A DNA stretch of 64,000 nucleotides from Ilumatobacter fluminis (lineage in GTDB: Bacteria; Actinomycetota; Acidimicrobiia; Acidimicrobiales; Ilumatobacteraceae): NCBI RefSeq assembly GCF_004364865.1, contig NZ_SOAU01000001.1, positions 4,434,001 through 4,498,000 of the forward strand, written 5' to 3'. The notes beneath the pieces were generated by a model, which saw only the letters and a program-made list of their open reading frames with translations, did not search any database and had not been told where the DNA came from. The position numbers were made by a program, and so were the translations under genes. Position 1 is the first letter of the stretch. Each line of letters opens with the position of its first letter. This document shows, in pieces, positions 4,997-45,033 of this stretch.

Positions 4997-5090
4997 GACT
5001 ACTCCGGGTGGTTGAGTGCCCTGACCATAACGGTTCCGATCACGCCCACCGAACCGGACTCCACTCACGCCCCGCGATCGACGGCGGACG

Positions 5091-5175
5091 GTCGGATGAG
5101 GTCAGACCCCATCCGACCGGAAACCGCTGGCTGATCACCGCACGCCCTGTCGGATGGGGTCTGACCTCATCCGAC
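5091..5175. repeat. Paired-palindrome element: two inverted 27-bp arms
   Basis: The arm at 5091-5117 (GTCGGATGAGGTCAGACC...) recurs perfectly inverted at 5149-5175 after a 31-base spacer. Each arm is a near-palindrome, with GTCGGATG at one end and CATCCGAC at the other. It lies between the start of the NHL lipoprotein gene and the stop of ohr. The sequence differs from the 1705 element but the geometry is the same. Confidence 0.85.
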
Positions 5176-41369: not shown

Positions 41370-41618
41370 CTAGGCGGCGTCGGACTCGAGCAGGCGGCGG
41401 CGGTTGAAGACCCGCTGCGGCCGATGGCGCCGCGGAGCAAGGTCGGTGACTGGCGCTGCGGCCGCGAAGGCCGGCCCGAGATCGAGCGTCATCGCTGCGG
41501 CGAGTCGCGGATCGTCGAGCAGGTTGCGGATGCGCAGGTCGTCACGTGTGGTCGTGACGGGGTTGGTGGACGTGGCCGGTTCGTCGGTGACGGTGCTGTT
41601 CCAGTGGAACTTCAGCAT
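41370..41618 (-). CDS. Small protein (82 aa) coupled to pilin-like gene
   Basis: Begins MLKFHWNSTVTDEPATSTNP, contains IRNLLDDPRLAAAMTLDLGP, and ends in a basic stretch (RRHRPQRVFNRRRLL). The ATG lies inside the last codons of the upstream pilin gene (7-base overlap), so it is probably cotranslated. The first seven residues echo MLEFQWN of the CWRC protein at 12605, though the rest does not align. Unknown function. Confidence 0.6.
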   Translation of the reverse strand: MLKFHWNSTVTDEPATSTNPVTTTRDDLRIRNLLDDPRLAAAMTLDLGPAFAAAAPVTDLAPRRHRPQRVFNRRRLLESDAA

Positions 41619-42004
41619 GACGATCCCTCCTGGGGGGTGACGGTGCCGCCGGCGTCGACGACGTGGTATTCGCTGACCGAGCGCAGGAAGCCACCCTCGA
41701 CGAGGGTCTGTTCGTAGCGGTCGTCCTCGTGGATGCCGGGCGTGGGGTCGATGGTGTCGTTGCCGGTCTGGGCCTCGTAGGCACCGACGGCGACGTCGAG
41801 TTGGCGACGGTCGGCGTCGCAACCGGTGTCGGCGGCTTCGGTGGTGACACCGCCGACGGCGAGGATCGCGGCGCCGAGCAGCACACCGAGGATGAGGACG
41901 ACCATGAGCAGCTCGATCAGCGTGTAGCCACCGTCGGTGGCCGCATCGCTGGTGTCGAGTCGGTCGGCGTGCCACGCGGTGTGGTCGTTCGATCGTGTCG
42001 GCAT
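41612..42004 (-). CDS. Type IV pilin/pseudopilin-like protein
   Basis: 130 residues. A prepilin leader ends GG, followed by Y27-T-L-I-E31 and a hydrophobic N-terminal helix (LLMVVLILGVLLGAAILAVGG). This is the class III prepilin-peptidase site with the conserved Glu at mature position 5. The remainder is soluble, with RRQLDVAVGAYEAQTGNDTI typical of a pseudopilin globular domain. GGAAGGA precedes the ATG. It is probably assembled by pilus or type II secretion machinery encoded elsewhere. It is coupled to the 82-residue small protein downstream. Confidence 0.85.
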   Translation of the reverse strand: MPTRSNDHTAWHADRLDTSDAATDGGYTLIELLMVVLILGVLLGAAILAVGGVTTEAADTGCDADRRQLDVAVGAYEAQTGNDTIDPTPGIHEDDRYEQTLVEGGFLRSVSEYHVVDAGGTVTPQEGSSC

Positions 42005-44189: not shown

Positions 44190-44214
44190 GCGCCCCCATG
44201 TTGCCAGGAACCCA

Positions 44215-44298
44215 GTCGGTTCATGTCAGACATCAACCGACCGAACACGAACTGGACACGTGCGAAACCTGGTCGGTTGATGTCTGACATGAACCGAC
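44215..44298. repeat. Paired-palindrome element upstream of the selenoprotein gene
   Basis: The 27-bp arm at 44215-44241 (GTCGGTTCATGTCAGACATC...) recurs perfectly inverted at 44272-44298 with a 30-base spacer. Each arm is a near-palindrome (GTCGGTT...AACCGAC). A second pair of the same sequence family lies on the other side of the gene at 44949-45033. Confidence 0.88.
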
Positions 44299-44343
44299 CA
44301 TCACCGGGAATAGTGGACAGAGCGAGGGGTGTTTCTCTCGGCC

Positions 44344-44928
44344 ATGCGACCACGCACCTGGATGGCCACAGCACTCGGTGCCGCGCTGCTGCTCACGGCA
44401 TGCGGTTCCGACGACGACGGAGGGGGCGGTTCAGCGGCCGACCCCGGCGTCACCCTGCCCGCTCCGGCGGAGGGCGATCCGCCCGACCTCCCGGTGGCCG
44501 AGGCGTCGCAAGCCGGTCCCCTACCCGAGGTCGCCGTTCGTCAGGTGAACGGTGACGGCGGGTGGGTGCAGTTCCGCAACGAGATCCCGTCCGAACAGCC
44601 ACTCCTGGTCTGGTTCTGGGCACCGCATTGACCCGCCTGTCGCCGGGAAGGCCCGGCGGTCGAGCAGTTTGCTCGTGAACACGCAGACGAAGTTCGGGTG
44701 GTCGGTCTCGGCACCCAGGACAGCGCCGAGGAGGCGGTCGAGTTCGTCGAGATGACGGGCACCACCTCGTTCCCCATGTACTGGGACGAGACGTTCCAGA
44801 CCTGGACGGCGTTCGGGATCAGCGCCCAGCCGGCGGTGGCCCTGCTGTCGCCGGACGGCGAACCGATCGCCGGCTGGCTCGGCGGCTTCCCCGAAGACGA
44901 GATCCTCGACGCCATCCGCACCGGATGA
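44344..44928 (+). CDS. Thioredoxin/TlpA-like lipoprotein, probable selenoprotein (in-frame TGA at 44629)
   Basis: 194 codons from ATG 44344. The signal peptide ends in the lipobox LLTAC (C20), and an acidic Gly-rich linker leads to a thioredoxin-like domain. The domain runs LLVWFWAPH, then TGA (codon 96), then PAC (C99), REGPAVEQFAREHADEVRVV, the cis-Pro-like SAQPAVALLSPDG and a final helix. The frame is continuous on both sides of the TGA, and the TGA takes the place of the first Cys of CPAC. A 7-bp GC hairpin starts nine bases after it. I read TGA as selenocysteine, giving a UxxC redox site on the outer side of the membrane, probably for thiol/disulfide exchange or peroxide reduction. A GTG at 44329 is an alternative start. 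The alternative reading is a recent nonsense mutation. Confidence 0.82.
44632..44658 (+). promoter_or_regulatory. Candidate bacterial SECIS element
   Basis: Immediately after the TGA (44629-44631), nine bases lead into CGCCGGG (44641-44647), loop AAGG, and CCCGGCG (44652-44658). A stem-loop whose apical loop begins about 16 bases after the UGA, with G at or next to the loop, fits the bacterial SECIS layout bound by SelB. The sequence lies inside the reading frame, as expected in bacteria. Confidence 0.65.
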
Positions 44929-44948
44929 CAACGCCCGAAAACGACGCT

Positions 44949-45033
44949 GGTCGGTTGATGTCAGACATCAACCGACCAGTCTGCGTCATCGTGGTGACGT
45001 GCGATGTCGGTTGATGTCTGACATCGACCGACA
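44949..45033. repeat. Paired-palindrome element downstream of the selenoprotein gene
   Basis: A 29-base perfect palindrome about one central base (GGTCGGTTGATGTCAGACAT..., 44949-44977) and a near-copy at 45005-45033, with a 27-base spacer. They share the GTCGGTTGATGTC core with the pair at 44215-44298, so the gene sits between two copies of this element. Confidence 0.88.

Follow-up and report, generated by a model that had tools for sequence, protein, structure and literature searches.

A probable thioredoxin-like selenoprotein lipoprotein in Ilumatobacter fluminis, with a tandem RNA hairpin after its UGA codon

Analysing a stretch of 64,000 nucleotides from the genome of Ilumatobacter fluminis (NCBI RefSeq assembly GCF_004364865.1, contig NZ_SOAU01000001.1, positions 4,434,001 to 4,498,000; hereafter the window), we found that the forward-strand gene at 44344-44928 most probably encodes a lipid-anchored, extracytoplasmic selenoprotein of the thioredoxin fold, here called the selenothioredoxin, in which selenocysteine (Sec) would be inserted at an in-frame UGA by SelB bound to the second (P2) of two adjacent RNA hairpins, the first (P1) acting as a spacer fold. 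We put the probability of this reading at roughly 0.87. The gene runs in a single frame broken only by TGA at 44629-44631 and ends with another TGA, its last codon at 44926-44928. Under the standard code it splits into two open reading frames (ORFs), 44329-44631 and 44698-44928, which a preliminary description made from the letters alone had joined by taking the TGA as one residue; translation confirms that they share one frame and gives WFWAPH-U-PACRREG across the junction, U being the putative Sec. The read-through product is a 194-residue lipoprotein with a signal peptide, a linker and a thioredoxin-like domain carrying the motif U-P-A-C, so that the UGA, probably decoded as Sec in view of the homologues and the Sec machinery, occupies position 1 of UxxC. 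The signal peptide (44344-44403), recognized by eye, ends in the lipobox L-T-A-C, whose Cys would be expected to carry the lipid. This Cys is nearly invariant in a 37-row alignment, which makes the ATG at 44344, 20 residues up to the lipobox and already preferred in the preliminary description, the better start.

The TGA is conserved well beyond this species. At an E value of 1e-10, a protein-level search matched 169 of the 395 genomes examined from the class Acidimicrobiia, and among the matches listed at least 71 of the 395 genomes, from many genera and families, have a homologue holding one in-frame TGA. Reading 102 distinct homologous stretches codon by codon, we found TGA at the aligned codon in 86, TGC or TGT in 15, and a wrong-frame artefact in one. 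Recurrence in 86 of 102 distinct stretches exceeds chance, and the pattern bears out the earlier placement of the TGA at the first Cys of a CxxC motif, a codon at which homologues keep either TGA or Cys. No further stop occurs in the aligned part of 85 of the 86 TGA homologues, although in six of the 86 the alignment stops short of query residue 165, so that the check there covers the aligned part only. The Sec/Cys label needs 7 changes on a tree of 92 rows, compared with 14.1 in shuffles; the Sec form is widespread, with Cys forms at several places on the tree. At some loci (L019, L060/L031, L037, L038, L041, L063, L064) two neighbouring selenothioredoxin paralogues lie within one locus, both with TGA. 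The close Cys homologue L032 (52% identity) belongs to a genome, G083, that retains selA and tRNA-Sec, and it possibly records a change from Sec to Cys with loss of the hairpins.

The machinery for Sec insertion is complete in this genome, a single contig of 4,775,416 bases that is 99.97% complete. It includes a tRNA-Sec with anticodon TCA (66.6 bits, the cut-off being 47), selD (324.5 bits), selA (405.6 bits) and, adjoining selA, selB (271.9 bits, the sole match over the cut-off); thus all of selA, selB, selC and selD, for which the preliminary description proposed a search, are present, among them the selB and tRNA-Sec whose absence it said would refute its Sec reading. The minus-strand gene for FdhA, the alpha subunit of formate dehydrogenase (L129, C1:1377583-1379454), also has one in-frame TGA, the U in NRTUHAPS, after which comes a hairpin whose loop reads GGTCT, and the genome therefore has a second likely selenoprotein. 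Across the class, and among the matches listed, tRNA-Sec was found in 64 of the 71 TGA-homologue genomes and selA in the remaining 7, while selA was found in 1 of 9 checked genomes whose listed matches lack a TGA.

The thioredoxin fold that the preliminary description saw after the TGA is borne out by both profiles and modelling. The read-through protein exceeds the Pfam cut-offs for AhpC-TSA (PF00578), Thioredoxin_8 (PF13905), Redoxin (PF08534) and Thioredoxin, and the AlphaFold prediction from 37 sequences is a thioredoxin fold (mean predicted local distance difference test 89.7) in which residue 96, the Sec, lies just before helix 97-112. Fold and Pfam matches place the modelled protein among the TlpA/DsbE/ResA-like thioredoxin-fold oxidoreductases. 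It exceeds no curated cut-off in NCBIfam, where the best score against DsbE, ResA, StoA and TlpA is 36.9 bits compared with 123.15 required, and NF047660 (HUIPC motif thioredoxin-like selenoprotein), a model whose presence in the library was unchecked, is not among the 24 families listed at E up to 10. The best Foldseek matches in the Protein Data Bank (PDB) are DsbF (3ios, rank 1) and MPT53 (1lu4, rank 2) of Mycobacterium tuberculosis, followed by ResA, and the same two lead when a sequence profile is compared with the PDB (E 4.7e-39 and 3.7e-32). Both share with the selenothioredoxin a thioredoxin fold in a secreted or envelope protein, and DsbF is 29% identical to the AlphaFold model. MPT53, which we take to be DsbE, and DsbF presumably have Cys at the position of Sec. 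Mycobacterial DsbE and DsbF assist oxidative folding in vitro, according to PMC3853704. The selenol of the exported, membrane-anchored protein would serve in disulfide exchange with proteins of the envelope. Among the neighbouring ORFs at ten loci, two of them without listed ORFs, none suggested itself as a partner gene; this comparison involved no family search of the neighbours, and a CcdA/DsbD-type donor was not sought.

Bacterial SelB, bound to a nearby hairpin with an early G in its loop, delivers Sec-tRNA to the UGA, and the RNA after the UGA of the selenothioredoxin gene holds two hairpins. P1 (44641-44658; 7 bp, loop AAGG) is the GC-rich hairpin that the preliminary description placed nine bases past the TGA, and it is present as described, at offsets 12-29 counted, as all offsets here, from the T of TGA. 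P2 (44661-44675; CGAGCA-GUU-UGCUCG) follows directly, is more conserved than P1 and is absent from that description. We analysed 85 TGA genes for RNA structure (the 86 without L081); at least 5 of the 6 P2 pairs are present in 75 of them, hereafter the tandem-type genes, which are therefore chosen by P2 pairing and most of which also have P1. The P2 consensus is UCGAGC-AGUUN-GCUCGA at offsets 31-47, its loop AGUUN lying about 34 nt past the UGA. Compared with synonymous recodings of the same peptides that use the family's own codon usage, the tandem-type genes fold more strongly both at P1 (mean z -2.03, 70 of 75 under -1) and at P2 (mean z -3.08, 75 of 75 under -1), whereas the 15 Cys homologues have no excess strength at either (mean z -0.08 and +0.21). 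Over 49 sequences, 96.9% of the P2 cells are paired, three of the six pairs show compensatory changes, and none of 500 shuffles scored as high in covariation over the whole structure. GCT encodes the P2 alanine in 69 of 75 genes, compared with 10.7% of alanine codons elsewhere in the same genes. A perfect P1 stem of at least 5 bp occurs in 69 of the 75 tandem-type genes, 4 of the 15 Cys homologues and 3 of the 10 other TGA genes. The region of both hairpins (offsets 3-48) folds at -22.6 kcal/mol. A closing helix seen in single folds (P0, offsets 8-11 with 54-57) was rejected, all four of its pairs being present in only 16 of the 75 genes.

From folding, recoding and covariation, P2 appears to be the best-supported SelB-binding hairpin, that is, the selenocysteine insertion sequence (SECIS). 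SelB carrying Sec-tRNA would bind P2 with its loop A-G-U-U-N, while P1 would fold up most of the roughly 34 nt between the UGA and that loop and so bring P2 to a workable distance from the ribosomal A site, with Sec then inserted at 44629-44631. The published model of bacterial SECIS elements is a single hairpin with a loop of 3-9 nt, a stem of 4-16 bp, a G in loop positions 1-2, a spacing of 16-37 nt and a minimum free energy of at most -7.5 kcal/mol (PMC13188914). P2 lies within its ranges of loop, stem and spacing whether the loop is taken as GUU (6 bp, spacing 35) or AGUUU (5 bp, spacing 34), and it shares the apical early-G loop, the stem size and the spacing of that consensus; in contrast, the consensus describes no spacer hairpin, and here a selected P1 fills the spacer. 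The FdhA element of the same genome, presumably read by the same SelB, differs as well, being a single hairpin about 18 nt from the UGA. The preliminary description had taken P1 itself for the SECIS; of this, the reality of P1 and its selection at the RNA level stand, while the role of SelB site passes to P2. If P1 were nevertheless bound by SelB, P2 would be accessory or a by-product of the peptide it encodes, VEQFARE. The P1 loop does start 16 nt past the UGA, within the published spacing, and VEQFARE is itself conserved, but L045 reads VAQFVQE and still keeps all six P2 pairs, the stem is kept with other letters outside the class, and GCT is retained against codon usage. We consider this assignment of the two hairpins unlikely.

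In the remaining ten TGA genes the UGA is followed by a second architecture: P2 is missing and offsets 29-32 read GGTC, which in nine of the ten forms the loop above a stem of 4 bp or more (the exception being L088). Their region 18-42 folds more strongly than its recodings (mean z -1.23, n=10), but several of them fold differently as single sequences, and on the tree they group apart, with L111, L119 and some Cys genes beside them. Both architectures occur in one genome in G153 (L060, L109) and G312 (L045, L108), so one SelB must read both unless a second selB exists there. The spacing from UGA to loop thus takes three values within one class, about 18 nt in FdhA, 26 nt in the GGUC genes and about 34 nt in the tandem genes. 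Run on the genome of I. fluminis, the covariance model R1, built from the tandem element, found only the selenothioredoxin gene under E 1 (E 2.7e-12) and no further selenoprotein. Among 396 genomes drawn from the phylum, it found places in 22 at E 1e-4, 18 of them marked as the same phylum outside the class, with listed scores of 39.5-80.1 bits. The eight loci read outside the class (L136-L139, L141-L144; from 8 of the 18 genomes) all lie at the TGA of a homologous thioredoxin-like gene, and in some of them the P2 stem is written in other letters, for example TTGCAC-AGGTG-GTGCAA in L142. R1 also matches Cys homologues weakly, reaching 22.7 bits in L070 and 26 bits in L029 (Corynebacterium), probably through shared coding sequence. 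On the ten GGUC loci R1 gave 14-26 bits in six and nothing below E 1 at the gene in four, and therefore fails to separate them from Cys homologues. The viral contigs searched contained no relative.

Several observations weigh against Sec insertion through P2. The TGA homologue L081 has an additional TAG. Seven TGA genomes, all multi-contig and all with SelA, have no tRNA-Sec over the cut-off; a match just under it is present in three (44 to 46.3 bits) and none at E 1e-7 in four. Moreover, tRNA-Sec is common in the class generally (260 of 395 genomes), so its co-occurrence with the TGA homologue is consistent with Sec decoding but weak evidence alone, and the FdhA protein scores 652.1 bits, just below the family cut-off of 666.25. 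As for the RNA, the z score of P2 is partly selected because the 75 genes were picked by P2 pairing, although that of P1 is unaffected, and two of five covariation measures are less clear or no better than shuffles, being reached by 20 and 193 of 500. P1 drifts in register (sums of its 5' and 3' ends range from 38 to 42) and, held to one fixed register, pairs in 59.5% of cells; because of these shifts, the RNAalifold consensus shows P2 only. P2 alone folds at -7.2 kcal/mol, just short of the -7.5 in the published model, and L141, L142 and L144, when folded as single sequences, favour alternative pairings, though their P2 arms are complementary.

The most obvious alternative is a pseudogene, in which a random nonsense mutation, or a sequencing error, interrupts a thioredoxin-like gene with Cys at this position. 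The two ORFs of the standard code would fit this, and the extra TAG of L081 indicates that decay or error does happen in the family; in genome G039, where L081 (and L140) is found, that TAG falls inside P2 and points either to decay of the copy or to an error in the sequence. However, the same codon is TGA in 86 of 102 distinct stretches, at least 71 genomes of the class, from many genera and families, have a TGA homologue, the domain is conserved past the TGA, selection acts on the RNA after the codon, and the Sec machinery is complete. The Sec reading is thus supported over nonsense mutation, as the preliminary description had argued; for this gene a pseudogene is very improbable, and for the family it is as good as refuted. 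Equally hard to credit is that a suppressor or near-cognate tRNA reads the UGA and inserts Trp, Cys or some other ordinary amino acid; no support for this was found, suppressor tRNAs having been sought within the Sec family only. TGA ends the selenothioredoxin gene and five of the eight other long ORFs examined in the window and is therefore a normal stop here, a tRNA-Sec with anticodon TCA is present, and ordinary readthrough leaves the hairpins unexplained.

A different possibility is that the UGA is regulated, so that most of the product is a lipoprotein cut short before the thioredoxin domain and the selenoprotein is made only if the cell has selenium. Recoding competes with termination, with UGA recoding at 30-40% in vivo in the system of PMC4513850, and such regulation would be compatible with Sec insertion through P2. 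No sign of a function of its own was seen here for the truncated part, and we give regulation of this kind a small share of the probability.

Beyond the single gene, we tentatively propose, at slightly less than even odds, a two-hairpin class of SECIS in Actinomycetota, with P1 as a foldable spacer that sets the distance between UGA and SelB and P2 as the SelB site, which would have spread together with an enlarged family of exported selenothioredoxins and coexist with single-hairpin SECIS in the same genomes. Such exported redox selenoproteins occur in several copies in some genomes, and since the standard code breaks the gene into two ORFs, members of the family throughout Actinomycetota are likely misannotated. 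The tandem hairpin and its natural spacing variants offer a direct test of the distance and geometry between UGA and SelB. The protein would be a member of the known UxxC thioredoxin-like selenoproteins, the tandem SECIS being the new part. In the relevant passages of PMC13188914 and PMC9312934, catalogued UxxC selenoproteins include a Redoxin family (PF08534), a thiol-disulfide isomerase-like family (PF13905) and a Prx-like thiol:disulfide oxidoreductase (PF00578), that is, the same Pfam families with Sec at position 1 of UxxC, a likeness by family and motif. The label 'new selenoprotein' in the preliminary description may therefore hold for the gene and its subfamily, but not for the kind, which the catalogue in those passages of PMC13188914 already contains. 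The words 'lipoprotein' and 'Actinobacteri' do not occur in the text of either review, and their passages name neither an actinobacterial lipoprotein subfamily nor a tandem SECIS. The open literature searched held no paper joining selenoprotein, Acidimicrobi and selenocysteine, and none joining Actinomycetota, selenoprotein and SECIS, though papers beyond that library may. Ilumatobacter occurred with selenocysteine there only in a soil metaproteomics paper, and PMC5029168 mentions Actinobacteria six times but neither Ilumatobacter nor thioredoxin.

A near-perfect palindrome (like GGTCGGTTGATGTCWGACATCAACCGACC) flanks the selenothioredoxin gene in four copies, two on each side, at 44211-44242, 44267-44299, 44944-44977 and 45002-45033. 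Its core pattern, with one mismatch allowed, has 80 matches on the plus strand and 81 on the minus strand of the genome, a palindromic site counting once on each strand, compared with none for the control, and many of the places among the matches listed are paired about 56 bp apart. The family looks like a repeat of the repetitive extragenic palindromic or bacterial interspersed mosaic element (REP/BIME) type. A related palindrome with other letters in its arms (GGTCGGATGAGGTCAGACCCCATCCGACC) lies at 5090-5118 of the window. Elsewhere in the window, the minus strand at 41612-42004 encodes a small protein whose N-terminus (GYTLIELLMVVLILGVLLGAA), judged by eye, is type IV pilin-like.
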